Positions 457 to 13,755 are shown, counted from the first letter of the stretch. The stretch is 13,755 nucleotides of DNA from a bacterium (GCA_040757115.1 JBFLYA010000101.1:1-13755); one strand, 5' to 3'. Notes: generated by a model from the letters alone, not told the origin. Translations and numbers: made by a program.

Positions 457-485
457 TTGACAAATAAGTAAATTTTGAGTATTAT
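457..485 (+). promoter_or_regulatory. Predicted sigma70-type promoter of the response regulator
   Basis: A textbook match: TTGACA at 457-462, a 17-bp spacer, TATTAT at 480-485. The start point would be near 492, and element C1 begins at about 494. The response regulator is the next plus-strand gene, so its mRNA would carry C1 as leader. Confidence 0.7.
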
Positions 486-493
486 TTATTAAG

Positions 494-655
494 GGAACTA
501 TTCAGCCACTGATTAACACGGATTAGCACGGATAAATACAGAGGTCAGAGGACAACAGGAGGAAAAACCTTCAGCCTAATTACGGACACGGAAAACGGAT
601 ACGATTCACGAATTTTCCGTGTTTCATCCGTGTTCATCTGTGGCTGAACAGTTAC
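494..655. mobile_element. MITE-like element C1
   Basis: An element of about 162 bp with long imperfect terminal inverted repeats. The left end reads GGAACTATTCAGCCACTGAT and the complement of the right end reads GTAACTGTTCAGCCACAGAT; both continue into ACACGGAT-type sequence and the pairing runs about 35 bases. The outermost bases share GTAAC-GTTCAG with family A. I see no target duplication, and the left terminal base differs from GTAA, so this copy may be old. There is no coding capacity. It occupies the leader between the promoter at 457-485 and the response regulator. Confidence 0.7.
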
Positions 656-661
656 AGATAA

Positions 662-715
662 TTTTACATTTTGATATGTAATTTTTATATTTGCTTTTTG
701 CATTTTGCTCTTTGG
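662..715. repeat. Low-complexity repeat E2
   Basis: A T-rich tract containing TTTTACATTTTGATAT (662-677) followed by TTTGC/CATTTTG repeats. The same 16-mer occurs at 12245-12260 within a similar tract. It is probably a degenerate dispersed repeat; function is unknown. Confidence 0.4.
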
Positions 716-790
716 AGAAAATTGATAAAAATAGAGGTTTTTGGTTTTGCAGAACTCTAACAATTACCAAAGAAAGGAGGGTAATGAATT

Positions 791-1168
791 ATGATGGCAA
801 AAAAAAGAATTTTAGTAATTGATGATGACCCTGTTATTCTTCGAGTTATCAACTTGAAATTAAGCCGGGGCGGTTTTGAGGTCAGGACGGCAAATAATGG
901 AACAGAAGGACTACAGAAGGCATTTGAGGAAACACCAGATTTAGTTATTACGGATATTATGATGCCTAAGATAAATGGTTTGGTCGTATATCAGGAATTA
1001 AAGAAAAATCCAAAAACAGAAAAAGTGCCAGTAATCTTTCTAACCGCATTAGGTGAAGAAAACGAGGAATTAAAAGAACTTGGTCCATTCACTGTAATTA
1101 CTAAACCCTTTAGCCCAAAACAAATGTTAAATACCGTTAATTCAATGTTGAGTTTACCTTTGCTTTAA
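791..1168 (+). CDS. Single-domain CheY-like response regulator
   Basis: A 125-residue receiver domain with no output domain. The acidic pocket is D11-D12-D13, the phospho-acceptor Asp is D55 in LVITDIMMP, the switch Thr is T85 (VIFLT) and the conserved Lys is K105 (TKPFSP). It should accept phosphate from an unlinked histidine kinase and act by protein-protein contact, or pass phosphate on in a relay; no kinase is in the window. The start at 791 has GGAGG at 776-780, 10 bases upstream; an earlier ATG at 784 is out of frame and soon stops. The alpha4-beta5 region (GEENEELKELG) is slightly shorter than usual. The 3' end overlaps the convergent pseudouridine synthase by 15 bases. A promoter at 457-485 with element C1 in the leader probably drives it. 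Confidence 0.93.
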   Translation: MMAKKRILVIDDDPVILRVINLKLSRGGFEVRTANNGTEGLQKAFEETPDLVITDIMMPKINGLVVYQELKKNPKTEKVPVIFLTALGEENEELKELGPFTVITKPFSPKQMLNTVNSMLSLPLL

Positions 1169-2062
1169 TTCCTTGATAAATTCACTTATGTCTTCTGGAA
1201 GGCGAGAGGAGAACTCTAAATATATATTGGTAATTGGGTGGTAAAATCCAAGTAGAAAAGAATGGAGTGCTTGCCTTTTGAGTGAGACTTCTCTTCTCTT
1301 GCCATATCTTTTATCCCCGACAACCTGATATCCAAGGTAACTCAAGTGAACTCGAATTTGATGTGTTCTACCTGTGCCTAATTTCACCTCTAAAAGTGTA
1401 TAACCTGCAGAAAATCGCTCTTTTACCTTAAAATAAGTAATGGCATTTTTGGCTAATCTCCCTTTTACCTTCATTCCCACACCACCATCCCATTCCCTTC
1501 CAATGGGAAGATTTATCTCGTCTTCATCCTGCTTTACAATTCCATACACAAGGGCGAAATAAGACCGATTAATCGTATGAGCGCTGAATTGTCGGGCTAA
1601 TGACCAATAGGCTTTATCACTTTTGGCAATAACTATTATTCCCGATGTGTCTTTATCCAGACGGTGAACTATCCCTGGCCGAAAAGGAGCACCAATTGAA
1701 GAAAGTCTACCTTTAGTATGAAATAGTAAGGTATTGATTAATGTGCCGGATTTTATTTTATGGGTAGGATGAACTATAATGCCGGCAGGTTTGTTGATGA
1801 CGATAATGTCATCATCCTCATATAAAATCTCTAAAGGAATATTTTCTGCCGGGATATTGAAATCTTCAGGTTGAGGTAAATTAATTATTATTTTGTCTCC
1901 TGGTTTTATTTTATAATGTGGTTTTACGCCGATTTTATCATTTAAAGTTACCTGGTTAGATTTAATCAAATCCTGGATTCTTACCCGGGATAAACCTGAT
2001 TTTTTAGTCAAATAAACATCTAATCTCTGATTCTCCTCATCTTTAATTACACTTAATTCCAT
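1154..2062 (-). CDS. RluD-family rRNA pseudouridine synthase
   Basis: A 302-residue protein with the RluA/RluC/RluD layout. An N-terminal S4 RNA-binding domain (about residues 13-60, LDVYLTKKSGLSRVRIQDLI) precedes the catalytic domain. The catalytic motif HRLDKDTSG is at 133-141, with D136 the expected nucleophile. NKPAG is at 90-94 and GTGRTHQIRVH at 229-239, both family hallmarks. It should convert specific uridines in 23S rRNA to pseudouridine; the S4 domain and length favour RluD over RluA, but the target site cannot be read from sequence. The start at 2062 lacks a Shine-Dalgarno, and a strong promoter whose -10 box ends 7 bases before the ATG suggests a leaderless mRNA. It converges on the response regulator with a 15-base overlap. 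Confidence 0.93.
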   Translation of the reverse strand: MELSVIKDEENQRLDVYLTKKSGLSRVRIQDLIKSNQVTLNDKIGVKPHYKIKPGDKIIINLPQPEDFNIPAENIPLEILYEDDDIIVINKPAGIIVHPTHKIKSGTLINTLLFHTKGRLSSIGAPFRPGIVHRLDKDTSGIIVIAKSDKAYWSLARQFSAHTINRSYFALVYGIVKQDEDEINLPIGREWDGGVGMKVKGRLAKNAITYFKVKERFSAGYTLLEVKLGTGRTHQIRVHLSYLGYQVVGDKRYGKRREVSLKRQALHSFLLGFYHPITNIYLEFSSRLPEDISEFIKELKQR

Positions 2063-2069
2063 AAGTTAC

Positions 2070-2098
2070 ATATTACATTGAGATGGACAATAAGTCAA
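2070..2098 (-). promoter_or_regulatory. Promoter for a probably leaderless pseudouridine synthase mRNA
   Basis: On the minus strand TTGACT (complement of 2093-2098), a 17-bp spacer, and TAATAT (complement of 2070-2075). Seven bases separate the -10 box from the ATG at 2062, so the start point would fall at or next to the first codon. No Shine-Dalgarno is present, which agrees with leaderless translation. Confidence 0.65.
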
Positions 2099-2110
2099 GA
2101 AAAAAACATC

Positions 2111-2140
2111 TTGACTTTTAATCATATTTTGTGTTACTAT
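2111..2140 (+). promoter_or_regulatory. Predicted promoter of the glycosyltransferase pair
   Basis: TTGACT at 2111-2116, an 18-bp spacer, TACTAT at 2135-2140. It diverges from the promoter at 2070-2098. The expected start near 2147 lies in the target duplication that precedes element A1, so the original leader was short (about 20 nt to the ATG once A1 and one duplication copy are removed). Confidence 0.6.
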
Positions 2141-2149
2141 TATAAAGTT

Positions 2150-2386
2150 GTAACCGTTCAGGCTATATATCAAAAGTGTAAGAAAGGGGATAAGGAGATA
2201 AGAGTGATATGGAGATAAGATAATAGAAATAGATTGAAATTTATAGAAATAGGTAGAAATTGATTGTGGAAAACAACAAATTTCCATAAATTTCTATTAG
2301 TTTCTATTAATTTCAATTTTTTTAATAATATCTCCCTATCTCCTTAATCTCCACATCTCCTTTTGTTACACCACCTGAACGCTTAC
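2150..2386 (+). mobile_element. MITE A1 (family A, 237 bp)
   Basis: Termini are GTAACCGTTCAGG and CCTGAACGCTTAC, inverted repeats with one mismatch in 13. It is flanked by perfect 8-bp ATAAAGTT duplications at 2142-2149 and 2387-2394. The two halves are complementary over most of their length (purine-rich GGAGATAAG and ATAGAAAT words on the left, their complements on the right), so the whole element can fold as one long imperfect hairpin. It has no gene. It differs from A2 only by two single-base homopolymer changes. It lies between the promoter at 2111-2140 and the TGAGGA ribosome binding site at 2394-2399 of the next gene. Termini and 8-bp duplication resemble the IS66 family. Confidence 0.93.
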
Positions 2387-2405
2387 ATAAAGTTGAGGAA
2401 AATAT

Positions 2406-4532
2406 ATGGCTAAAATAAAAAAGAAGGGAAAAGGTCTTCAAGAAAAACTCACCCATAAAAAAGGGGTATCATTAGCGATAAAATCTAAATATAATTACAT
2501 TCTTATCAGCATTATCACGGCAATAACGATTTTATATGTCACCTCTACCTTTTATTATACAGGTGGGCATTTTTTCCTGCCAACAGATGATTCATTTTTA
2601 TCCTTTCATTATGCCAAACAATTATCACAAGGACAGCCGTTTCAATATAACTCAGGCGAATCTCCGACCACCGGGGCAAGAAGTCTTTTGTGGACAATCC
2701 TTTTATCTCCGGGATTTTTCATTGGATTAGATGGTAATGGGATAATTGGTTATTCATTTTTACTGGGAATTTTATTTCTCTTTTTATCAAGTTGGTTAAT
2801 CTTCAGGATTGGCGAGATACTTTTTAACCAGATGCTGGGGATAATTGCCAGCCTCCTTTTTTTGCTTAACGGACCGATTAGCTGGGGATATTTAAGTGGG
2901 ACTGAAATTGGTCTTTTTAGCACCTTAATTTTAGCTACCCTTTATTTTTTAGGACAAGAACAAGACAATGGTTACAAAAAGATAATTTTCGGTTCGTTAT
3001 TGGCAATTGCACATCCAGAGGGAATTATACTTGCATTTTTGTTGACATTAGTCCTGGTATTGAACTTAATCTTCAAAGGAGAGCGACCAAAACTAAAGAC
3101 TCTATATCTTATTATTCCTGCTATTGTTGGACTTAGTTGTATATGCTTAAACCTAATTCTAACAGGTAATGTTTATTCTACCTTTTTACAGGCGAAATCT
3201 CAATTATTTTCCCCAAATATGCCATTACCGGAAGTTTTAGCAAAATCAATTAAATTTTATGCCTATCTTCTAAAGGAGATATTTGGAGGTTTTAATGGGG
3301 CATATACTGAGATGATAGATGCAAATGTTGGACAGACGGCAACATATTTTGCACCCTTTGCCTTCTTATTCTTTTTATTAGGTTTGTTACCTTTAGCGGT
3401 TAAAGAGATTTATTCCCAAAAATTAGGTTTTAATTTCCTGACTATGAGTTGGTTCTTTCTGGGAATTGGGCTTACCGCAATTACATTTCCAACAGATTAC
3501 TCCTGGAATATAACCATTATTCCCTATTATCCATTATTTCTTATCGGGGTGGTCATAGGAATTTATCAGGTGAGTCAGATGATAAGCGCGCAGGTGACTA
3601 CATTGCCTTTAAAGGACATCTTTTACAGCATTTCTTCTTTTTTCCTTCTTTTTTCTTTATTTAGCACCTCTTTTTTTGTCGTGGTTTATGGCAAGAGTTG
3701 TAAGGATAATTATCATCAGAAGATTGGATTAGTCAAATGGGTAAAAGAAAATCTTCCGGCTAATATAACCGTGGCGATGAGTGGGATAAATACATTAAGG
3801 TATTATGAAAATAGAAACTTTATAGATTTAACTGGCGTTGGCACGAAAGGATTGGCTAAACCATATCAAAATGGTGTAGGAAGTGTATTTGAGTGGCTTG
3901 AAGATAAAAAAACATATCCGGATTGTTTTATCCTTGATAAATTAGATTTTACTCGTTCTGGTTTACTTCAGAATCAGTTATATTCGGCAAAGGTCGTGGG
4001 GGTGCGGGCAATTGAGCCCATAAATGTTTATCAGGCAAATTGGAATTTAGCCAATAGTGGAGAGCAACCAGTTACCTCATTTGATGGCTATAAATTGGTT
4101 GATAAAATTGATGTTGCTAATTTAACCGATGAAGGAAAACACAATTATAGATTTTGGGGTGCAGAACCGGGGTTAAATGCTCCGACCTATGTTTATGAAC
4201 TTTCGTGTTTAAACAGTGAGCGAAAGGTTATTGATGGAGGTCGCATCCTCTCTGGCGGGGAAAGTATGGTTGTCAAAACTCAACCGGGCCGTGAGATGAA
4301 AATAATGATGCGCACTACTGGGGCTTTAAAACTAAATGTGATAATAAATGAAAAATATCGCAAAACATGGGTTGATGAAAGAAATTATGGAAATCTCTGG
4401 GTAGAATCGATACTCACTATTCCTGGAAAATGGATTACCTCGGACAAGACAAAGATACATATTGAGATAAAGAATTTACAACAAGATACTTACTCAGTTA
4501 CCCACTATTGGTTCTTTCAAGTGGAGGATTAA
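2406..4532 (+). CDS. GT-C-like membrane glycosyltransferase, first of a tandem pair
   Basis: A 708-residue integral membrane protein. A basic N-tail (1-28) precedes the first membrane helix (30-52). The outer loop after it carries the acidic pair D61-D62 in LPTDDSFLSFHYAKQL, then GQPFQYNSGE and TTGARSLLW (about 76-96). This is the pattern of GT-C enzymes that use polyprenyl-phosphate sugars, the acidic pair being the likely catalytic or metal site. Further hydrophobic helices run to about residue 430. A soluble part follows, with WVKENLPANITVAMSGINTLRYY and a beta-rich end from about 610. It probably transfers sugar to a surface glycan or protein; substrate is unknown. TGAGGA lies 6 bases before the ATG. 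The next gene starts 8 bases on and is a paralog. Confidence 0.85.
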   Translation: MAKIKKKGKGLQEKLTHKKGVSLAIKSKYNYILISIITAITILYVTSTFYYTGGHFFLPTDDSFLSFHYAKQLSQGQPFQYNSGESPTTGARSLLWTILLSPGFFIGLDGNGIIGYSFLLGILFLFLSSWLIFRIGEILFNQMLGIIASLLFLLNGPISWGYLSGTEIGLFSTLILATLYFLGQEQDNGYKKIIFGSLLAIAHPEGIILAFLLTLVLVLNLIFKGERPKLKTLYLIIPAIVGLSCICLNLILTGNVYSTFLQAKSQLFSPNMPLPEVLAKSIKFYAYLLKEIFGGFNGAYTEMIDANVGQTATYFAPFAFLFFLLGLLPLAVKEIYSQKLGFNFLTMSWFFLGIGLTAITFPTDYSWNITIIPYYPLFLIGVVIGIYQVSQMISAQVTTLPLKDIFYSISSFFLLFSLFSTSFFVVVYGKSCKDNYHQKIGLVKWVKENLPANITVAMSGINTLRYYENRNFIDLTGVGTKGLAKPYQNGVGSVFEWLEDKKTYPDCFILDKLDFTRSGLLQNQLYSAKVVGVRAIEPINVYQANWNLANSGEQPVTSFDGYKLVDKIDVANLTDEGKHNYRFWGAEPGLNAPTYVYELSCLNSERKVIDGGRILSGGESMVVKTQPGREMKIMMRTTGALKLNVIINEKYRKTWVDERNYGNLWVESILTIPGKWITSDKTKIHIEIKNLQQDTYSVTHYWFFQVED

Positions 4533-4539
4533 ATTTTAA

Positions 4540-6630
4540 GTGTTCAAAGATAAAGAAATTATAGGGATTTTAATTATTACACTTATCATTGCATTTTTTT
4601 ATTTAGGCACTATGTTTTATTACACGATGGGGCAATTATCTGCCCCACTGGATGATACCTTCATCTTCCTTCAATATACCTGGCAATTAATTCATGGACA
4701 TCCACTGCAATATAACACTGGTGACCCACCTACTACTGGGGCAACCAGTATGATTTATCCTTTATTTTTAATCCCGGGATTTTTAATCGGGCTTGATAAG
4801 ACAAACATACTTTATTATACCTTTAGTCTGGGTGTTGTTTTTTTGACTATCTCTGGTTGGTTGGTGTTCAAGATTGGAAGGCGGTTAATTAATGATAAGA
4901 TTGGGGTTTTGATGTGTTTGCTATTCCTTTTTAATGGACCTATTTTATGGGTTTATTTAAGTGGTATGGATGCTGGATTATTTAGTCTGTCGATTCTATC
5001 AACAATGTATTCCTTGCTTTTAGAATTAGAGGACAAAGAACAGCGATATACTCGAACTATTTGGGCAGGCTCATTGATGACCTTAACCCGACCTGAAGGT
5101 TTTATCCTTTCAGTGATTATCTTTAGTTATATCTTTTGGTCAAAGGGGATAAAGAGTTATTATTTTCTCATTCCCATTGCTCTGGGGATGGCACAGATAG
5201 GAGTAAATTATTTATTTAACGGCACATTAAGTGCTAATACGATGACAGCAAAGTCTGTCTTAACGAAACCAAATGTGAATTTATTAGATATGATGGCGAC
5301 TTCAGGTAAGTACTGTGTGTATATTTTAAAGGACATTTTTAGTGGATTTAATGGTGAGTTTTCTGCGTTGATGGAGACTAATGAGGGAAGGCAGGTAAGT
5401 GTATATTTTGCGCCGTTTTCTTTAATCTTTTTCTTAATTGGCATCCTTTTTATAATCCTTAAAGAAAGGTCAAAATTTGGCATTGTTATTTCCAGTTGTT
5501 TTTTTATTGGGATATTGGCGGTTGCGACCGCACTTCCTTTTAAATGGCACTGGCACCGCTATCTTATTCCCTACTATCCAATTTTTCTCATATTTACACT
5601 TTTAGGGATTTATTATTTTAGTGAGTTAATGGGGAAGACAATTTCTTCACTTAACCCCAAATATGTATTTTATGGATTGGTATCTTTTTGCTTATGCTTT
5701 GGGTTTTTAAGCACGGTGTATTTTGGGGTAGCGTATGGAAAAAATTGTAAGGATATTTATTTTCAGCAAATAACACTCGGTAAATGGATAGATAAGAGTC
5801 TTCCTCGTGAGGCAATAATTGCCGTAAATGACCTTGGTGCATTAAAATATTTTGGAAACAGATATGTTATTGACCTGCTTGGATTAGGGACCAAAGGAGT
5901 AGCCAGGATATGGGTAAATGGGGCTGGAAGTGTTTATGAATATCTTGAGAATTTAGAGCCAAAATATTATCCTCAATATTTTATCATTTATCCTAATTGG
6001 TTTGTCTTTGATAGGCTTGGGATGTTGGAGGAAGAAATAGCTCAATTTAAACTACTTCAACCAACAATTGCTGGTAGTGGAGCCCCAATGGTAGTTTATA
6101 AGATTGATTGGGGGTTTGCACATTCCGGAGATAAAATTCAATCTCCGGATATTTTAACTCAGTTAGAGGGATATAAATTAGTTGATAGAGTTGATGTTGC
6201 GGATATTGAGAATGAATTAAAACACAGGTATAAGTTCTGGGAATCAGAACCAGGGATGTATTATGGGATGAATTATCAGGACCAGGTATTAAAACTTCCC
6301 TGTCTTGAGGCACCAGATAAAATTGTGATTGATGCCGGGAGAATGATTACGGCTGGGGAGAGTATGGTTGTTGAAACTGAGGTGGGCAAGGATTTGAAGA
6401 TAATTAAGAGAACCAATACCTTTACCCCGTTAGAGGTTTTTGTTAATGATAAATTAATTGGCTTATGGACACATCACAATGTCGAGGAGCAGTGGAGTGA
6501 GACGGTTTATGAAATTTCAGGCAGACATATAACCTCAAATAAAACTAAGATTCGGTTTGAGATTCATCGAGAATTGAGGCATCATTACACCTGTTTTTCG
6601 GCACATTATTGGTTTTATCAGAAAGCTTAA
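4540..6630 (+). CDS. GT-C-like membrane glycosyltransferase, second of a tandem pair
   Basis: A 696-residue paralog of the preceding protein, sharing the same order of motifs: first helix (about 7-29), acidic pair D38-D39 in APLDDTFIFLQYTWQL, GHPLQYNTGDPPTTGATS, multiple helices to about residue 395, a CKDIYFQ junction near 402, then WIDKSLPREAIIAVNDLGALKYFGNRYVIDLLGLGTKG and a beta-rich C-terminal domain beginning near ITAGESMVVETE. The start is GTG at 4540, with GGAGG at 4523-4527 inside the end of the previous gene, so translation is probably coupled. It lacks the 28-residue basic N-tail of its neighbour. The pair arose by tandem duplication and may act on successive steps or different acceptors of one glycan; this is inference. 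Confidence 0.85.
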   Translation: MFKDKEIIGILIITLIIAFFYLGTMFYYTMGQLSAPLDDTFIFLQYTWQLIHGHPLQYNTGDPPTTGATSMIYPLFLIPGFLIGLDKTNILYYTFSLGVVFLTISGWLVFKIGRRLINDKIGVLMCLLFLFNGPILWVYLSGMDAGLFSLSILSTMYSLLLELEDKEQRYTRTIWAGSLMTLTRPEGFILSVIIFSYIFWSKGIKSYYFLIPIALGMAQIGVNYLFNGTLSANTMTAKSVLTKPNVNLLDMMATSGKYCVYILKDIFSGFNGEFSALMETNEGRQVSVYFAPFSLIFFLIGILFIILKERSKFGIVISSCFFIGILAVATALPFKWHWHRYLIPYYPIFLIFTLLGIYYFSELMGKTISSLNPKYVFYGLVSFCLCFGFLSTVYFGVAYGKNCKDIYFQQITLGKWIDKSLPREAIIAVNDLGALKYFGNRYVIDLLGLGTKGVARIWVNGAGSVYEYLENLEPKYYPQYFIIYPNWFVFDRLGMLEEEIAQFKLLQPTIAGSGAPMVVYKIDWGFAHSGDKIQSPDILTQLEGYKLVDRVDVADIENELKHRYKFWESEPGMYYGMNYQDQVLKLPCLEAPDKIVIDAGRMITAGESMVVETEVGKDLKIIKRTNTFTPLEVFVNDKLIGLWTHHNVEEQWSETVYEISGRHITSNKTKIRFEIHRELRHHYTCFSAHYWFYQKA

Positions 6631-6631
6631 A

Positions 6632-6728
6632 CTACGAATTACACGAATTTATAGTTTCGTGATTTTGGACGCAGATTTTCGCAGATTAGCAGGATTATTT
6701 AAATTTGTATAATTCGTGAAATTAGTGG
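6632..6728. repeat. Inverted-repeat element D
   Basis: The ends CTACGAATTACACGAATT (6632-6649) and the complement of 6711-6728 (CCACTAATTTCACGAATT) match at 14 of 18 positions. It starts one base after the glycosyltransferase stop codon. The interior holds a GGACGCAGATTTTCGCAGAT segment (6667-6695) that also forms the arms of the hairpin at 13518-13587. A transcription-end role for the fold is possible but there is no T-run. Confidence 0.55.
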
Positions 6729-6742
6729 TATATTTTTGGGAA

Positions 6743-6758
6743 TGTTTCACATGAAACA
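6743..6758. promoter_or_regulatory. parS: parS-like ParB site upstream of parB
   Basis: TGTTTCACATGAAACA differs from the bacterial parS consensus TGTTTCACGTGAAACA at one central base. With flanks, the palindrome is AATGTTTCACATGAAACATT. It lies about 290 bases upstream of the parB start, separated from it by element A2, and could serve as a second nucleation site or in parB autoregulation. Confidence 0.75.
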
Positions 6759-6780
6759 TTAATCGAAAATCTAAAATTAT

Positions 6781-7017
6781 GTAACCGTTCAGGCTATATA
6801 TCAAAAGTGTAAGAAAAGGGGATAAGGAGATAAGAGTGATATGGAGATAAGATAATAGAAATAGATTGAAATTTATAGAAATAGGTAGAAATTGATTGTG
6901 GAAAACAACAAATTTCCATAAATTTCTATTAGTTTCTATTAATTTCAATTTTTTAATAATATCTCCCTATCTCCTTAATCTCCACATCTCCTTTTGTTAC
7001 ACCACCTGAACGCTTAC
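6781..7017 (+). mobile_element. MITE A2 (family A, 237 bp)
   Basis: Same orientation as A1 and almost identical to it: one extra A in the left arm and one T fewer in the right arm. Termini are GTAACCGTTCAGG and CCTGAACGCTTAC. It is flanked by perfect 8-bp AAAATTAT at 6773-6780 and 7018-7025. The distinct duplication shows an independent insertion. The right duplication lies 5 bases before the GAGGAGGG ribosome binding site of parB, so the hairpin separates parB translation signals from upstream promoter sequence and the parS-like site. Confidence 0.93.
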
Positions 7018-7045
7018 AAAATTATACTTTGAGGAGGGATTTAAA

Positions 7046-7921
7046 ATGCAACGAATAGCTTTAGGTAAAGGATTAGATGCCTTACTTCCGGAGGTAAAGT
7101 CTGAAGGGGAGAATATTCGGGAGATAAAGATTTCAGAGATTATGTCAAGTCGTTATCAACCAAGGCGGTATTTTGATGTGGAGAAACAGAAGGAATTAGC
7201 AGATTCAATCAGAGAAAAGGGAATAATTCAACCTGTTTTGGTGCGGACATCTAAGGATGGTTATGAATTAATAGCAGGTGAACGAAGGCTTCAAGCGGCG
7301 AAGTCCATTGGATTAGAGCGAATCCCGGCGATAGTGAAGGATGTAGTTGATAGCGAGGCATTAGAAATTGCCTTGATTGAAAACATTCAACGCCAGGATT
7401 TGAATCCAATGGAAGAGGCGGATGCTTATCAAAGATTAATCCGTGAATTTAATCTCACACAAGAAGATTTAGCCAAAGAGGTCGGAAAGGATAGAACCAC
7501 TGTGACGAACACCCTCCGATTATTAAAATTACCTCCTGAAATTCAAGACCATGTTTCTACGGGTATTATTTCGATGGGGCATGCACGGGCAATATTGAGT
7601 CTGGAAGTCGAGGCGCAACAATTAGAAGCATCCGAGAAAATTATTAAAAAGGGCTTATCCGTTCGGGAAACTGAAGGATTGGTTAAACGAATGAAAAAAA
7701 CGAGTGTTTCACGTGAAACATCTCAACCCCCAGAACCAGATGCCACAATTCTTGCCTGTGAAGAGGATTTAATGCGAGCATTAGGGACTAAAGTGAGGAT
7801 TAAGCAAGAATCAAAAGAGAAAGGAAAAATAGAAATAGAGTTCTATTCTTACTCAGACCTTGAAAGAATAATGGATAGAATTATCCCAAAAGCAGATTTG
7901 GTAAATATACCTACTCTGTAA
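7046..7921 (+). CDS. parB: Chromosome partitioning protein ParB
   Basis: A 291-residue ParB of normal length. The N-terminal ParB/Srx CTPase domain (about 24-115) has SRYQPRRYF (35-43), GERR at 79-82 and ENIQRQDLNP at 112-121, the CTP-binding and clamp-closing motifs. The parS-binding helix-turn-helix is about 138-160 (TQEDLAKEVGKDRTTVTNTL). A short linker (215-235) leads to a C-terminal dimerisation domain. It loads at parS, slides as a CTP clamp and, with ParA and SMC, segregates the origin region. GAGGAGGG at 7031-7038 is 7 bases from the ATG. ParA is usually just upstream; here that position is taken by glycosyltransferase genes and element A2, so parA must be elsewhere. A perfect parS is inside this gene. 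Confidence 0.97.
   Translation: MQRIALGKGLDALLPEVKSEGENIREIKISEIMSSRYQPRRYFDVEKQKELADSIREKGIIQPVLVRTSKDGYELIAGERRLQAAKSIGLERIPAIVKDVVDSEALEIALIENIQRQDLNPMEEADAYQRLIREFNLTQEDLAKEVGKDRTTVTNTLRLLKLPPEIQDHVSTGIISMGHARAILSLEVEAQQLEASEKIIKKGLSVRETEGLVKRMKKTSVSRETSQPPEPDATILACEEDLMRALGTKVRIKQESKEKGKIEIEFYSYSDLERIMDRIIPKADLVNIPTL
7705..7720. promoter_or_regulatory. parS: Perfect parS site inside parB
   Basis: TGTTTCACGTGAAACA is an exact 16-bp match to the near-universal chromosomal parS palindrome. It codes for the linker residues VSRET (221-225), a place where parS can be kept without harming a domain. It marks the locus as chromosomal and probably origin-proximal. Confidence 0.95.
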
Positions 7922-7934
7922 GAGGATAAAAAGT

Positions 7935-8513
7935 GTAAGCGTTCAGGGTGTCCGTAAGGGAAAATGGAAAAGTAGGGAAAAAAGGGGAAAAATATTAAAG
8001 AATTTCATTTCAAATTTTTGGAGTTCTCAATTCCTGAAGCTGTCAGGAACAGGTTTATTGAGGATTGTGTGCTTTGTCAGTATCACAGAATCGAAGAGCA
8101 AACGAAGCATCTAAATCTGGGACTCCGTTAAAAAAAAAGGAACTTATTTTTGCAAAAACTGTAAGCATTCAGGTGGTGTAACAAAAGGAGATGTAGAGAT
8201 TAAGGAGATAGGGAGATATTATTATAAAAAAATTGAAATTAGTAGAAACTAATAGAAATTTATGGAAATTTGTTGTTTCCCACAATCAATTTCTACCTAT
8301 TTCTATAAATTTCAATCTATTTCTATTATCTTATCTCCATATCACTCTTATCTCCTTATCCCCTTTCTTACACTTTTGATATATAGCCTGAACGGTTACC
8401 AAAAACTATAATGCGGGAACGAGCAGAACAACTTTCAAATTCCTATACATAAAAATAAATTTCCCATTTTCCCATTATTTCCCCTTTTCCCTTCATTACA
8501 CCTGAACGGTTAC
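7935..8513 (-). mobile_element. Element A4, a longer family A relative, interrupted by A3
   Basis: The left end is GTAAGCGTTCAGGGTGT and the complement of the right end is GTAACCGTTCAGGTGTAA; both continue into GGGAAAA-type purine runs. Flanks are TAAAAAGT (7927-7934) and CAAAAAGT (8514-8521), an 8-bp duplication with one change. Total length is 579 bp; removing A3 and one of its duplication copies leaves about 332 bp. The interior shares no obvious sequence with A3 beyond the ends. It holds a small hairpin (8031-8049, TTCCTGA/TCAGGAA) and a start-less open frame (7976-8131). It fills the gap between the convergent parB and radical SAM genes, starting 13 bases after the parB stop codon. Confidence 0.8.
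8161..8399 (-). mobile_element. MITE A3 (family A, 239 bp, inverted, nested in A4)
   Basis: A reverse-oriented copy of A1/A2 with termini GTAAGCATTCAGG and CCTGAACGGTTAC and perfect 8-bp CAAAAACT duplications at 8153-8160 and 8400-8407. Compared with A1 it has about four base changes and one 2-base insertion, so it is slightly older or more drifted than A1 and A2. It is inserted inside A4, dating A4 as the earlier arrival. Confidence 0.93.
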
Positions 8514-8559
8514 CAAAAAGTAATACTTAATTGGCTGAATGATGAACAGCAGATTACCT

Positions 8560-9465
8560 TCAGAATCCTCGTGATAAACCTGATTCTTTAGCTATTCTTA
8601 TCGCCGACTGGTATTCCTGCCGTGTAATACTCCTTGAAAGCATTGGATAATCATAAGCTTGATACATCGGCCGATATTGTGCCATTATATTAACATAGGT
8701 ATTTTTCGATATTTTGTTAGCAATAAATTCCATTATTTGTTGAGTGCCAGCCAGATTATAAGGCAGGACTAAATGTCGAACTAATAAACCTCTGGTAGCA
8801 ATGCCTTCATCATTTATTTGCAAATCTCCTACCTGACAATACATCTCAACTAATACCTTTTTTATTATCTCCGGGTAATTCTTTGCCTTTGAATATTTTT
8901 CTGAGACTTCTGAGTCTGCGTATTTAGCATCCGGCATATAAATATCTACAATCCCATCTAATAATTTTATCGTTTCAATATTCTCATAGCCACCACAATT
9001 ATAGACAATAGGGATATTCAATCCTTTTGCAATTGCTATGGCTAATGCCTCTACCCAGAGAGGAACAAAATGGGTTGGTGTAACAAGATTAATATTATGA
9101 CAGCCGAGTTTTTGTAAATAAAGCATCTGGTTGACCAGCTCTTCTTTAGTTATCTCTTCCCCATATCCTAAATGACTAATATCATAATTCTGGCAAAAAA
9201 TACACCCCAAATTACAATGGGTAAAGAATATGGTTCCAGAACCATATTTTCCTACTAATTCTGGTTCTTCACCAAAATGAGGATGAGCGCTTGAGACTTT
9301 TAAGGTAGCCGTAGATTTGCAAAATCCCAGTTCGCCCTGAACCCGATTAACCTTACATTCTCGTGGGCACAGGGTGCATTTCTGGAGTTTTTGAGTAAGT
9401 AAGTTAATCCTTTTTTGTAATTCGCCAGTTTCGTATAACTTGATATAAGAAGGTATAAAGATCAT
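8560..9465 (-). CDS. PflX-type radical SAM protein (pyruvate formate-lyase activase homolog)
   Basis: A 301-residue protein. The radical SAM cluster motif CxxxCxxC is C84, C88, C91 (CNLGCIFCQN). It is preceded by an N-terminal four-cysteine group, C30, C33, C37 and C49 (CTLCPRECKVNR...GFC), and by HPHFGEEPEL (61-70), the combination typical of COG1313/PflX proteins. They cleave S-adenosylmethionine to make a 5'-deoxyadenosyl radical; the substrate of this group is not established, and no glycyl radical enzyme is in the window. The gene starts 13 bases after the TPR gene, with AAGGTG before the ATG, so the two are probably cotranscribed. A full-length ORF with no missing cysteine. Confidence 0.9.
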   Translation of the reverse strand: MIFIPSYIKLYETGELQKRINLLTQKLQKCTLCPRECKVNRVQGELGFCKSTATLKVSSAHPHFGEEPELVGKYGSGTIFFTHCNLGCIFCQNYDISHLGYGEEITKEELVNQMLYLQKLGCHNINLVTPTHFVPLWVEALAIAIAKGLNIPIVYNCGGYENIETIKLLDGIVDIYMPDAKYADSEVSEKYSKAKNYPEIIKKVLVEMYCQVGDLQINDEGIATRGLLVRHLVLPYNLAGTQQIMEFIANKISKNTYVNIMAQYRPMYQAYDYPMLSRSITRQEYQSAIRIAKESGLSRGF

Positions 9466-9478
9466 TTAACACCTTGAA

Positions 9479-10159
9479 TTATTTTAACTTGTTATAATAA
9501 AACCTTGCCTCATTTGCCCAACTTGAAGAAGAAGATACCTTTCCGTAGGCTTCTTTAGCCTTCTTCAGGTCGCCTAATTCCTGATAACATCTACCTATAC
9601 TTACCCACGCATAATTAATATTGAATTCTTCAGGATATTTCTGGATAATTTGTTGATAGGTTTTAACCGCAGTCTCAAAATCCTTTTTTTCTTCATAAAT
9701 TTGGGCTAATTCTTGCAAGGCAGAAGATGCCAGTAAGTGTTTTGGGTATTTTTTCAGGAATTCTTCAAACAGTTTTTTTGCCTGGTCATATTCCTCTAAT
9801 TGGACCAAGCAGACAGCTTTGTAGAACATTGCCGGCCTGATCCATTTACTCCATCCATATTTATCCATCACTTTCTGATACTCGTTGAGTGCCTGTCGAT
9901 AGCTTTCTTTAAATAGAGGTGTGCATTTTTCATAGGTTGTTTGTGCTTTAGCAAATTGTTGTTCAGCGCCTTTTATTGCCCCGCCAAAAGTCCAGACTAA
10001 TATAAACCCAACAACGAGTGTGCCTAAGGTTACAAAGGCATAAGTTTGTAATTTAGCTGGATTTTGACGCAAATACTCTATCAACCGTTTTATACCCATC
10101 GCTAATACATCTTCTTTGATGTCATGTCTTGTGATTTTTTTCTTTTTCTTTATCTTCAT
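9479..10159 (-). CDS. Membrane-anchored TPR-repeat protein
   Basis: 226 residues. A lysine-rich N-terminus (1-9, MKIKKKKKI) and a short helix precede a single membrane segment (about 39-60, TYAFVTLGTLVVGFILVWTF), oriented positive-inside with the rest outside the membrane. The remainder is TPR-like: ALNEYQKVMDKYG, YDQAKKLFEEFLKKYP, FETAVKTYQQIIQKYP and LKKAKEAYGKVS are successive second helices of repeats, about residues 90-220. This resembles YfgM/BamD/CpoB-type scaffolds acting in envelope assembly, but the specific partner is unknown. AAAGGAG sits 6-7 bases before the ATG. A TATAAT-like -10 box (complement of 10213-10218) lies in the 112-base gap behind the dehydrogenase, with no good -35, so an internal promoter is possible. 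Confidence 0.8.
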   Translation of the reverse strand: MKIKKKKKITRHDIKEDVLAMGIKRLIEYLRQNPAKLQTYAFVTLGTLVVGFILVWTFGGAIKGAEQQFAKAQTTYEKCTPLFKESYRQALNEYQKVMDKYGWSKWIRPAMFYKAVCLVQLEEYDQAKKLFEEFLKKYPKHLLASSALQELAQIYEEKKDFETAVKTYQQIIQKYPEEFNINYAWVSIGRCYQELGDLKKAKEAYGKVSSSSSWANEARFYYNKLK

Positions 10160-10271
10160 TGATTATCTCCTTTCTTAGTTCCATTTTTAATCTTCTTTTT
10201 GAGCCCCTTAATATTATACTTTTTGAACTATCACAATTTATTTAATCTGTTTATCCATCCCTTTTTCACCC

Positions 10272-11300
10272 CTATGTGCGACATATTTTTTGTGGTTCAA
10301 TAATAACCTTCATCGATTCTTTAGCTTCAGCGACCAGTTGAAAGCCAAGTTGAATCTGGTCTAATGGCAATCTATGTGTAATCATCTCTTTTACCCACAC
10401 TCGACGGGTCCTGATTAGTTCAAGTGCAGTGAGATGGTCTGCTCTATTCCCGGCGTAGGAACTGGTAAGGGTAATTTCATTACGCCAGAAAATGTCCTTA
10501 AGAGATAAAGGCGTAGTAAATGGAGCAAAAAATAGTATAGTTCCACCCCGCTCAACTGATTGTAATGCCTGGGAAATAGCCTCAGTGGCACTGGTGCATA
10601 TTATCACAATATCAGCCAATCGACCATTATTTATTTTTTTAACTCGTGTCGGGACATCTTCTTTAGCCGACACCGTAAAATTTGCTCCAAATCGTGTCGC
10701 TTGAGTGAGTCGATAGTCACTAATATCTGTGGCAATTATTATTCCTGCACCACAAGATTGTGCCAGATGGATATGCAGTAATCCCGCCATCCCACTACCC
10801 ATAATTAGAATACTATTGCCTGGTTGCATACCTGCTATTTTTTGTCCCCTTAAAACACATGCTAATGGCTCAATAAAGGTTGCCTCTTCAAAAGAGATTT
10901 CATCAGGTAATAAATATACTCCCCGGTCAACATTAATTGCTGGCAGACGGACATATTCGGCAAAACCACCCGGCTCAAAATGGGTTTTTCGTAATGTCTC
11001 GCAGACCGTATGATGTCCATGCAAACAGTAATGGCAGGTGTAACACGGCACATGATGGGAAGCAGAAATCCGGTCTCCAACTCTGTATTGTGTTACTCCC
11101 TCTCCGAGCTCAACAATTACACCACCAATTTCATGTCCTAAAACCAGAGGCACCTTATTAATTCGATACCATTCCATCACATCACTTCCGCAAATACCAC
11201 TTGCCTCTACCTGAATCAATAATTCTCCTGGTCCAATTTGTGGTTTTTGCATCTGTTCTATTCTTATATCACTATTGCTGTAATACATTGCCACTCGCAT
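10272..11300 (-). CDS. Zinc-dependent medium-chain alcohol/polyol dehydrogenase
   Basis: 342 residues from the start I choose (MRVAMYYSNSDIRIE). Catalytic-zinc motifs are CGSD and GHE (in LGHEIGG); the structural-zinc loop has four cysteines spaced CxxCxxC-x7-C (CYTCHYCLHGHHTVC); the NAD(P) Rossmann motif is GSGMAGLL. This is the threonine/sorbitol dehydrogenase-like branch of the MDR family; substrate cannot be assigned. A longer ORF runs to 11336, but its extra residues MTDPLRKE are encoded by the end of element B2, so that start is an artefact. The native site GGAAGGAA, partly rebuilt by the B2 target duplication, lies about 12 bases before the ATG at 11300. Without B2 the gene would start about 20 bases after the NDK-like gene. 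Confidence 0.88.
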   Translation of the reverse strand: MRVAMYYSNSDIRIEQMQKPQIGPGELLIQVEASGICGSDVMEWYRINKVPLVLGHEIGGVIVELGEGVTQYRVGDRISASHHVPCYTCHYCLHGHHTVCETLRKTHFEPGGFAEYVRLPAINVDRGVYLLPDEISFEEATFIEPLACVLRGQKIAGMQPGNSILIMGSGMAGLLHIHLAQSCGAGIIIATDISDYRLTQATRFGANFTVSAKEDVPTRVKKINNGRLADIVIICTSATEAISQALQSVERGGTILFFAPFTTPLSLKDIFWRNEITLTSSYAGNRADHLTALELIRTRRVWVKEMITHRLPLDQIQLGFQLVAEAKESMKVIIEPQKICRT

Positions 11301-11320
11301 CGTAATAGATATTTCCTTCC

Positions 11321-11527
11321 GTAATGGGTCAGTCATTTGGGGGAACGAACATTAACCTGCGGATTATAGAATAATGAAAATAGTAGGCAAGTAGGTAGTA
11401 GGTAAGTAGGAAAGGGATAAAGGATGTGCACAGTATTCTTCCCCTGGAGGCAATGTCTCCCTTTCCTACTTTCCTACTCTCCTACTTCCTACTTTCAGGA
11501 GAATCCCCCATTTCACTGACCCATTAC
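11321..11527. mobile_element. MITE-like element B2
   Basis: A 207-bp element, inverted relative to B1 and alike over its whole length. Both ends begin GTAATGGGTCAGT. Flanks TTCCTTCC (11313-11320) and TTCCCTCC (11528-11535) form an 8-bp duplication with one change. The duplicated target is the ribosome binding site of the dehydrogenase (GGAGGGAA on the minus strand), so insertion left a Shine-Dalgarno copy on the gene side. The interior GTAGGAAAG-like and CTTTCCTAC-like tracts can pair as a long hairpin. It splits what was probably a tightly spaced NDK-like/dehydrogenase operon. Confidence 0.88.
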
Positions 11528-11535
11528 TTCCCTCC

Positions 11536-11973
11536 TTAAGGGAAAAAGATAGTCATTTCTCTTTGGGCACTGATGGAATTTTCAGCCCGATGGACTAAAT
11601 TCTGGACAGCACGATTCTCGCTATAAGCAATCTCTAATGAATCTGGACTCAGACTTCGTATTGTGCCTTTTAATGCCTTTGCCGGGTCAGTAGTTCCAAC
11701 AATTTTATCCATTAGTAAAAAGAAGTCTTCTTTAATGCCATCTTTTTCTTCTAAGATAAATGCCTTAGCCGGTTTATCCTGAAGATAAGCCACTAACCAC
11801 GGATAAAACCTTTTATTTTGATGTTCAAGATAAAGTTGTTCAATCTTTTTTAGTGGTAATTTATCAAATTCTTTAACCGCAACAATCTCAGCTGCAGGGT
11901 TAATCCTGGCTAAAATCTGCTCCTCTAATTTAACACCATCAGGCTTTAGCATAAAAAATGTTCTTTGTTTCAT
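11536..11973 (-). CDS. Nucleoside diphosphate kinase-like protein, single domain
   Basis: 145 residues, the usual NDK length. Family landmarks: FFMLKPDGV (6-14, K10 in the phosphate-binding position), GTTDPAKALKGTIR (93-106) and the active-site segment NLVHRAENSISAQREM (125-140), with H128 as the expected phospho-histidine. In normal NDKs this reads N-x-x-H-G/A-S-D-S; here the S-D pair is replaced by A-E, and the arginine expected four residues before G93 is Asp (D89). It may be a weak or specialised kinase, or a regulator. The Shine-Dalgarno is poor: AAAGGA lies 18 bases away. The neighbour upstream is a tandem NDK-like protein, so three NDK-type domains occur in a row. Confidence 0.8.
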   Translation of the reverse strand: MKQRTFFMLKPDGVKLEEQILARINPAAEIVAVKEFDKLPLKKIEQLYLEHQNKRFYPWLVAYLQDKPAKAFILEEKDGIKEDFFLLMDKIVGTTDPAKALKGTIRSLSPDSLEIAYSENRAVQNLVHRAENSISAQREMTIFFP

Positions 11974-12025
11974 TTTAATTTATTGAATTCATCCTTTATT
12001 TAATAAGAGATTTAGTTCTCATAAA

Positions 12026-12083
12026 ACACAAAATATAGGGATTTGTATAAATTAAGCCCTATATATTGTGGCTGAACGGTTAC
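12026..12083. repeat. Stray family C/A end with adjoining hairpin
   Basis: The complement of 12068-12083 is GTAACCGTTCAGCCAC, matching the C1 end and the family A terminal GTAACCGTTCAG. It runs into an inverted repeat in which ACACAAAATATAGGG (12026-12040) pairs with CCCTATATATTGTGG (12057-12071). No opposite GTAAC end is visible, so this is a truncated or decayed element lying in the leader region of the single-domain NDK-like gene. Confidence 0.55.
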
Positions 12084-12169
12084 AATCTCTCTTGCTTGTT
12101 GTATTTCAGAATAAGATAGATACATAGTATAGCGGTTATTAACCAAATTTTTACATAGAGAATTACCAA

Positions 12170-12270
12170 CAAAATCAAAATGCAAAAATTAAAATGCAAA
12201 ATGAAAAAATGCAAAGAGAATTTGTATGGGTTTAGTCTCCTGCTTTTTACATTTTGATATTTGATTTTTG
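12170..12270. repeat. Low-complexity inverted repeat E1
   Basis: The left arm has repeated AAAATGCAAAA words and the right arm ends TTTTACATTTTGATATTTG (from 12245). Left arm and complement of right arm are similar, allowing a weak hairpin around a central 40 bases. It shares a 16-mer with the tract at 662-677. The 335-base gap 11974-12308 contains this and the stray C end, and no gene. Confidence 0.4.
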
Positions 12271-12308
12271 TCTCACATTATGTCAAATTTTGACTAATAA
12301 CTGCTATA

Positions 12309-13256
12309 TTACCCCAGTTGATTATTTTCAAAATTAATTACCGCATATTCCCTTTCAAAATCCTGTTTATTTTCAGAGGTATGAACTGTATTTTCAATTA
12401 TGGACTCTGTATATGCTATACGGACAACTCCTAATGCGGTTTTACGAATCTCCTGAATAACATTTACTCCTTCATACAATAGAGCCAGCGAGCGTTTATT
12501 GCTCATAAAATCTACTAATTCACCAAAGAAGGGTTTATGTTTATGTGGGGTATAAAAGATTTCCATATCAGAGGTAGTAGGGGTAATAATCTTTGCAGAA
12601 ATGATATACATACCTGTCTTAGAAAAGGCATTGACGACATTGCCCAGTCTTGGGTCATTTGGGGTATCAAATACATTAGGCTTGACGACTACTAAACTTT
12701 GTTCAACCTGGTCTTTTATATCATCAGGATAAACAATAGTCTCTTTTAAAGGTCCTCCACATGATTTATATTTACGCCACATCACATCCAATTGGGCATC
12801 TGCTTCCTCTTTATTTGAAGGTGCAGAAGCAGGAAATTCTATAATTATGTCCGTATTTATTTTATAAAAAACGCCGTATCTTCCTAAGATAGTCGTGCCA
12901 TTCCTCTGTCTTATGTCACCCATTAAATTACTAATCCGACTGATAGCATCTTCTCCCTCGATAACTAAATTAAATATCCTTTTTTTATTATATTTCCTTT
13001 TATCATAACTTTCTTCACTCATAAGCATTTGTTTGAATTTATCCTGGATAATTTTTTCTTCTTTTGTTTCTGGCAAAGTTAATGTTTCGCAAAAATCCTC
13101 AGCAAAATCAGGGGTCAGTGTATAAACATCTGCCGCAATAATGTCTAATGGAGAATTTCCCTCAGGCATAAAGCGAATTAGACTGAGAATATCCCCTGTT
13201 AAAGACCGCTCAAGTGCGGGTAAATAGATATTAATTAAAGTTCGTTCACTTGCCAT
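12309..13256 (-). CDS. Fused double NDK-like protein, N-terminal domain degenerate
   Basis: 315 residues that I read as two NDK-like domains. The C-terminal one (about 187-309) has LVVVKPNVF (K192), KPFFGELVDFM, LYEGVNVIQEIRK, VVRIAY (R279) and ENTVHTSEN, with H292 in the phospho-histidine position, followed by EREYAVINF. The usual L-x-G-x-T-x-P loop before the arginine is missing. The N-terminal one (about 4-160) has ERTLINIYLP where ERTLxxIKPD is expected, LTPDFAEDF, VIEGEDAISRISNLMG (98-113), GTTILGRYG, then a segment with no His where N-x-x-H belongs, so it should be inactive. GGAGGAG lies 10 bases before the ATG, and a promoter is at 13335-13363. The first-domain call is mine, from motif order. 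Confidence 0.72.
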   Translation of the reverse strand: MASERTLINIYLPALERSLTGDILSLIRFMPEGNSPLDIIAADVYTLTPDFAEDFCETLTLPETKEEKIIQDKFKQMLMSEESYDKRKYNKKRIFNLVIEGEDAISRISNLMGDIRQRNGTTILGRYGVFYKINTDIIIEFPASAPSNKEEADAQLDVMWRKYKSCGGPLKETIVYPDDIKDQVEQSLVVVKPNVFDTPNDPRLGNVVNAFSKTGMYIISAKIITPTTSDMEIFYTPHKHKPFFGELVDFMSNKRSLALLYEGVNVIQEIRKTALGVVRIAYTESIIENTVHTSENKQDFEREYAVINFENNQLG

Positions 13257-13334
13257 ATAATTTTATCTCCTCCTGAATCAAAATTAGAAATTAGGGTTTC
13301 ACTCTAAAATGAACCATCTCCTTAATTCAATTCT

Positions 13335-13363
13335 ATTTTACCATTTTTTCTCTTTGTTGTCAA
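13335..13363 (-). promoter_or_regulatory. Promoter of the double NDK-like gene
   Basis: On the minus strand TTGACA (complement of 13358-13363), a 17-bp spacer, TAAAAT (complement of 13335-13340). The start point is near 13328, giving a leader of about 72 nt with no inserted element, unlike the other leaders here. It is probably the main promoter for the minus-strand gene series. Confidence 0.7.
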
Positions 13364-13410
13364 TATAAATTCGTAAATGAAAAAATCATCGCATTACCTA
13401 AAAATAATTG

Positions 13411-13439
13411 TTGGCAAGATTACTTAAATATGTTATAAT
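13411..13439 (+). promoter_or_regulatory. Predicted promoter for a gene beyond the right edge
   Basis: TTGGCA at 13411-13416, a 17-bp spacer, TATAAT at 13434-13439. The start point is near 13446. It diverges from the promoter at 13335-13363. No plus-strand gene follows inside the window, so the target lies outside, or the transcript is non-coding. Confidence 0.55.
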
Positions 13440-13446
13440 TTTAAAT

Positions 13447-13462
13447 ATAATTATTCAGCCAC
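13447..13462. repeat. Family C-like end
   Basis: ATAATTATTCAGCCAC resembles the C1 left end (GGAACTATTCAGCCAC), sharing AA-TATTCAGCCAC. It begins 8 bases after the -10 box of the promoter at 13411-13439, the same placement as C1. The partner end is not in the window, so the element is truncated or continues past the edge. Confidence 0.45.
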
Positions 13463-13517
13463 CAGGTTAATAAGATACGAAAAAAGGGATTCGGGATTCG
13501 TGGTTCGGGAAAGTATA

Positions 13518-13587
13518 GGACGCAGATAAACGCAGATTATCAGGATTTTTAAATGTACATCCTGATAATCTGCGAAAATCTGCGCCC
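13518..13587. repeat. Long hairpin of the cgcagat repeat
   Basis: The arm GGACGCAGATAAACGCAGAT (continuing to 13546) pairs with the complement at 13559-13587 at about 25 of 29 positions, around a 12-base loop. One arm, at near identity, also occurs alone at 6667-6695. No T-run follows, so it is not a typical terminator. The rest of the gap, 13589-13755, holds a small hairpin TGCCCA/TGGGCA (13616-13634), an isolated TTGACT at 13693 without a good -10, and no gene. Confidence 0.75.
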
Positions 13588-13755
13588 CATAACCTATTTT
13601 CAGAAGAAACGCTCATGCCCACAGGGAATGGGCACAAAGTCTTATGGTGAAATGTCAAGTAAAAAATTAAGTTTTTTTAAAAATATTTTTCTTGACTTAT
13701 ATCCCTAAAAAGGCACAAAAATAGTATGTTCGGATACAAGTGAATTTTTTAAATA

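Follow-up and report, generated by a model that had tools for sequence, protein, structure and literature searches.

Placement of IS66-type miniature elements relative to predicted promoters in a bacterial genome

Elements and predicted promoters in the window

The DNA analysed here, referred to as the window, is a stretch of 13,755 nucleotides from a bacterium that contains the ribH leader, a response regulator gene (791-1168), two adjacent large genes, parB and a set of short repeats, none of which carries a gene. Three near-identical copies make up the A family: A1 at 2150-2386 (TIRs GTAACCGTTCAGG/GTAAGCGTTCAGG), with the target duplication ATAAAGTT at 2142-2149 and 2387-2394; A2, upstream of parB at 6781-7017, with the duplication AAAATTAT at 6773-6780 and 7018-7025; and A3 at 8161-8399, with the duplication CAAAAACT. 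A3 is nested in, and interrupts, an outer element, D (7935-8513), which lies between convergent genes and has A-family TIRs (GTAAGCGTTCAGG/GTAACCGTTCAGG) with the flanks TAAAAAGT/CAAAAAGT. The second family consists of B1 in the ribH leader (69-269; TIRs GTAATGGGTCAGT/GTAATACGTCAGT; duplication GGTAATTG at 61-68 and 270-277), which has many further copies in the genome, and B2 (11321-11527; TIR GTAATGGGTCAGT; flanks TTCCTTCC/TTCCCTCC), just upstream of a minus-strand gene (10272-11336). The third includes the decayed MITE C1 (494-655; TIRs GGAACTATTCAGCCAC/GTAACTGTTCAGCCAC) and two solo C-type ends, a right end, GTGGCTGAACGGTTAC, at 12068-12083, recognised from its sequence and by comparison of ends, and a left end, ATAATTATTCAGCCAC, on the plus strand at 13447-13462, whose partner is absent from the window.

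The flanking 8-bp duplications are perfect in A1, A2, A3 and B1 and match at 7 of 8 positions in B2 and D, while none remains at C1. Each of A1, A2, A3, B1, B2 and D is a transposon insertion that has GTAA-type TIRs and duplicated 8 bp of its target. The preliminary description, which had assigned the elements to different families, left out B2, D and A3; the A, B and C groups can indeed be told apart, but they share one kind of end, in which GTAA precedes a related stretch of 9 bases, and an 8-bp duplication.

Several other features were noted in the same stretch. Short GGTAATTGGTAA-type repeats flank B1 (62-83 and 270-299) and recur in the response regulator leader of the congener G001; they are possibly another repeat family, entered by B1. 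Palindromic repeats ACGCAGAT...CGCAGATT at 6667-6695 and 13514-13591 form a further family without GTAA ends. The adjacent large genes (2406-4532 and 4540-6630) encode related membrane proteins, probably through tandem duplication, and sequences that look like parS sites lie upstream of parB (TGTTTCACATGAAACA, about 6742-6757) and inside it (TGTTTCACGTGAAACA, 7706-7721).

An E. coli-like matrix served for promoter prediction and a simple script based on codon usage for gene calling; both yield predictions. Strong sigma70-type matches were found on the plus strand at 457-485 (TTGACA-17-TATTAT, 12.9 bits), upstream of the response regulator gene, at 2111-2140 (TTGACT-18-TACTAT, 9.5 bits), before A1, and at 13411-13439 (TTGGCA-17-TATAAT, 13.1 bits). 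C1, A1 and the 13447 end had been described as starting shortly after -10 boxes, which was confirmed, with gaps of 8, 9 and 7 bases, respectively. Since the target duplication flanks A1, the distance from the -10 box to the ATG at this locus before the insertion could be determined as about 20 bases. The 13447 end does follow a strong promoter, but it is a solo end without a partner and has no downstream gene within the contig. The positions given for A2 and B1 were also borne out: 13 bases separate the end of A2 from the parB ribosome binding site, and B1 occupies the ribH leader, some 54 bases past the -10 box of a predicted minus-strand promoter at 324-351 (TTGACT-16-TATACT; present in G001 with a few changes). 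Neither of the two sits at a transcription start, and no strong predicted promoter was found at start-site distance from A2. RNA folding predictions support the proposal that several mRNAs would gain long hairpin leaders: the A1 transcript has a predicted fold of -90.9 kcal/mol (z -9.4 versus shuffled sequence) and the C1 transcript one of -58.4 kcal/mol (z -7.0), and the predicted fold of B1 is less extreme (z -2.9).

Evidence for transposition and element class

The genome sample comprised 2.44 of 4.32 Mb (about 56%), taken as stretches. Within these 2.44 Mb, 101 elements combined matching GTAA ends with an 8-bp duplication mismatched at no more than one position, compared with 2 and 0 elements when the duplication was read at shifted positions as an offset control. 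The target consensus was symmetric and AT-rich, approximately (A/C)AAWWTT(T/G). Empty sites were found in the congener G001 (97% identity in ParB): a single AAAATTAT copy occupies the A2 site there, and a single target copy the B1 site. In the reciprocal case, an element found only in G001 at the parB locus, with the duplication ATTTAAAT, corresponds to a spot that is empty in the genome studied here. C1 is absent from G001, but its flanks there fail to rejoin cleanly; the 457-485 promoter is identical in G001, from TTTTTCTTGACA through ATTATTTATTAAG, and is followed there by a leader of different sequence. Promoter cores appear to be spared and leaders replaced between congeners. Numerous A copies within the genome share 100% identity, as do some between it and G001, which suggests recent movement of A elements. 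Separately, the flank ATTATAAACCAAATC ahead of GTAACTATTCA occurs at about ten places in the genome (G000), so that one C-type element seems to have been copied within a larger repeat.

An IS66-family transposase gene (PF03050) is present in the same genome, at C277. The best transposase copy (L171), 1,563 bp long between its 15-bp ends (GTAACCGTTCAGGTA), reads as a single long ORF broken by two in-frame stops; it was the only near-complete transposase gene found, and no matching target duplication flanked its GTAACCGTTCAGGTA ends, which the B-type ends (GTAATGGGTCAGT) resemble less well. ISDge4, a member of the ISBst12 group of the IS66 family, has the end 5'-GTAACTGCTCAGCA and an 8-bp direct repeat (PMC12898284), and its end is nearly matched by those of the C type (GTAACTATTCAGCC) and of the A type (GTAACCGTTCAGG) in our elements. 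Based on the IS66 gene with matching ends in the genome and on the end and 8-bp repeat of ISDge4, we filed the elements as non-autonomous IS66-type (ISBst12-like) MITEs, a known kind of element that differs from the IS66/ISBst12 group elements in carrying no gene. We infer that the IS66 transposase of this genome mobilises them. Our literature search found nothing specific on IS66 MITEs with 8-bp duplications.

Placement of element ends across the genome

At threshold 10, the promoter matrix gave 0.59 hits per kb-strand in noncoding against 0.14 in coding DNA, so that the predicted promoters are informative, though they are not a map of starts. Insertions were mostly intergenic, and the orientation of the neighbouring genes there resembled that at random intergenic positions. 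Some targets lie at the stop codon or in the last bases of a gene (L095, L096, L097, L104, L160, L166, L184, L189, L195), where the GTAA end may itself provide a stop codon.

A first test, with duplication-bearing elements and promoter thresholds of 7-9, gave no excess near promoters. With promoters scoring above 11, 10 of the 808 distinct ends lay 4-7 bases past the -10 box, compared with about 1.1 per other 4-bp bin. The expected number at this peak was 1.9 under an 8-bp target model and 3.0 under a 20-bp target model (P 0.001), and the excess persisted in the remaining genome when the window's ends were excluded. Among 230 paired elements, the density was 5.1 per kb at gaps of 4-8 bases and 2.5 per kb in the 50 bp upstream of the -35 box, against 0.85 per kb in the rest of the leader and 0.46 per kb in all noncoding DNA. 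None of the 230 lay in the 7,975 bp of predicted promoter cores (-35 to -10), where about 3.6 were expected at mean density; this zero is partly expected, because duplication-less insertions leave broken promoters unrecognisable after element removal. Conditioning on position within the leader, again with the 20-bp target model, gave 7 ends at 4-8 bases, where the expectation ran from 3.7 at threshold 11 to 7.4 at threshold 8. The genome-wide tabulation of distances to predicted promoters thus returned an excess at 4-7 bases, but a within-leader P of 0.05-0.64, depending on the promoter threshold. An apparent pile-up just upstream of the -35 box was mostly gone under the conditional test (P 0.04-0.34). 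Individual P values near 0.01 call for caution, given the number of thresholds and tests applied. Only about 2% of the element ends lie at a strong predicted start, and start-site placement is hence not a general rule.

AT-rich target choice, combined with selection against insertions that damage genes, promoters or ribosome binding sites, probably accounts for most of this pattern. An ISBst12-like, single-gene transposase of the IS66 family would move the MITEs into AT-rich 8-bp targets, duplicating each, and insertions in genes, promoter cores and ribosome binding sites would mostly be purged by selection. The surviving copies would then be intergenic, some of them in 5' leaders and some a short way upstream of -35 boxes. 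The -10 to +1 stretch itself would be a good target sequence, and in very short leaders it would be the sole insertion-tolerant place between promoter and ribosome binding site, by which a small fraction of copies would come to lie at the transcription start. The distance from the -10 box to the start codon is only 19, 20 and 32 bases at the start-site cases L167, L098 and L221 (about 20 at A1), so that in these leaders an insertion could leave promoter and ribosome binding site intact only at the start site. We attribute most of the start-site excess to these very short leaders and to the resemblance of the AT-rich target to a -10 box. The role of selection or tolerance, proposed at the outset, is supported by the intergenic bias, the empty promoter cores and the C1 locus, where the congeners share the promoter but not the leader. 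Selection would act as a filter, and transcription presumably runs through the elements, so that mRNAs made through them would start with a long hairpin.

Several observations count against this explanation. The sharp peak at 4-7 bases, with 10 ends, stays above the 3.0 that the genome-wide target model predicts, the argument of the only free slot is inapplicable to the 4 of 7 start-site cases in which the -10 box lies more than 120 bases from the start codon, and a TTGAC box has a 3.8-fold odds effect (P 0.005). A modest residual promoter effect beyond target preference is possible.

Alternative explanations and related elements

A transposase that prefers initiation regions, where DNA opened or bent at active promoters between -10 and +1 captures the element, would fit the 10 ends at gaps of 4-7 bases against about 1.1 per other bin, though we consider it unlikely. 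Searches across eight genomes gave 86 distinct promoter-end pairs within the searched range of 0-30 bases, 44 of which, in keeping with such targeting, had gaps of 0-7, with 4 and 6 as the commonest values. An exact TATAAT at 3-7 bases from an end occurred 16 times with and 16 times without TTGAC at promoter spacing, and at 8-30 bases 14 times with and 53 times without it; the resulting odds ratio of 3.8 (P 0.005) hints at -35 dependence and would favour promoter targeting, with the reservation that the eight-genome counts are not fully independent, since some pairs are orthologous between genomes. A pattern control with wrong spacing gave 26 distinct matches, of which 14 were the same real promoters and the other 12 were too few for a gap distribution. 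A precedent is offered by IS5, which favours destabilised (SIDD) promoter DNA in E. coli (PMC5493358). However, the target consensus found here is itself -10-like, and -10-like hexamers that lack a -35 box showed an enrichment of their own at the same distance (50 versus about 28 per bin), as a plain preference of the transposase for such sequence would predict. Promoter targeting is further weakened by the lack of significance in the within-leader conditional test and by the small share of ends concerned. RNA polymerase would, moreover, occupy the same DNA. A control comparing -10-like hexamers that read into and away from the element was set aside, as the target half-site is not strand-symmetric. 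The insertion targeting to promoters or leaders suggested in the preliminary description is weakly supported: the excess at 4-7 bases is real and recurs in relatives, but it is mostly explained by the target and short leaders. We give little credence to the stronger claim that IS66-type transposition is steered to active promoters, with the 8-bp target inside the -10 to +1 DNA melted by RNA polymerase; if it were true, a mini-transposon family would systematically supply new 5' hairpin leaders while leaving promoters intact.

Positive selection for copies at +1, with an extreme 5' hairpin stabilising the mRNA or tuning expression, seems improbable. 5' hairpins slow mRNA decay, long and very stable hairpins are predicted for the A and C elements, and a gene called close behind a start-site element is mostly co-directional with the promoter, all of which would suit such selection. 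Nevertheless, copies shared with the congener, judged by eye, showed no clear surplus at start sites (about 3 of 11) over positions further downstream (about 2 of 17), C1 is missing in the congener despite an unchanged promoter, and the body sequences of the elements differ freely. Pure chance, by which a single window was chosen for striking cases, is very improbable: only one window was read, its cases were found by the reader first, and the duplication-bearing set showed no excess at lower promoter thresholds, but the excess holds in the rest of the genome without the window's ends and short gaps also prevail in other genomes.

AT-rich target choice and selection against damaging insertions remain our preferred explanation. 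With its hundreds of IS66-type mini-transposon ends, this uncultured lineage represents a natural insertion experiment, which reveals where intergenic DNA can accommodate a hairpin of about 160-240 bases. Should what is left of the start-site excess reflect targeting, bacteria would have an equivalent of promoter-directed integration; nothing specific on transposon insertion preference at start sites was found in the literature. In E. coli, IS5 likewise favours easily deformed, AT-rich promoter-region DNA, whereas its target is Py-T-A-Pu, and a start-site peak is not among the features described in the available part of that study (PMC5493358). The Correia/NEMIS and ERIC repeats are short, non-coding and intergenic, with inverted-repeat ends and proposed effects on mRNA (PMC2229807). 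The window elements are likewise short, non-coding and intergenic with inverted-repeat ends, but their ends and targets differ from those of both. Putative promoters are found within Correia elements themselves; the promoters scored in this analysis are located in the flanks and vary between sites.
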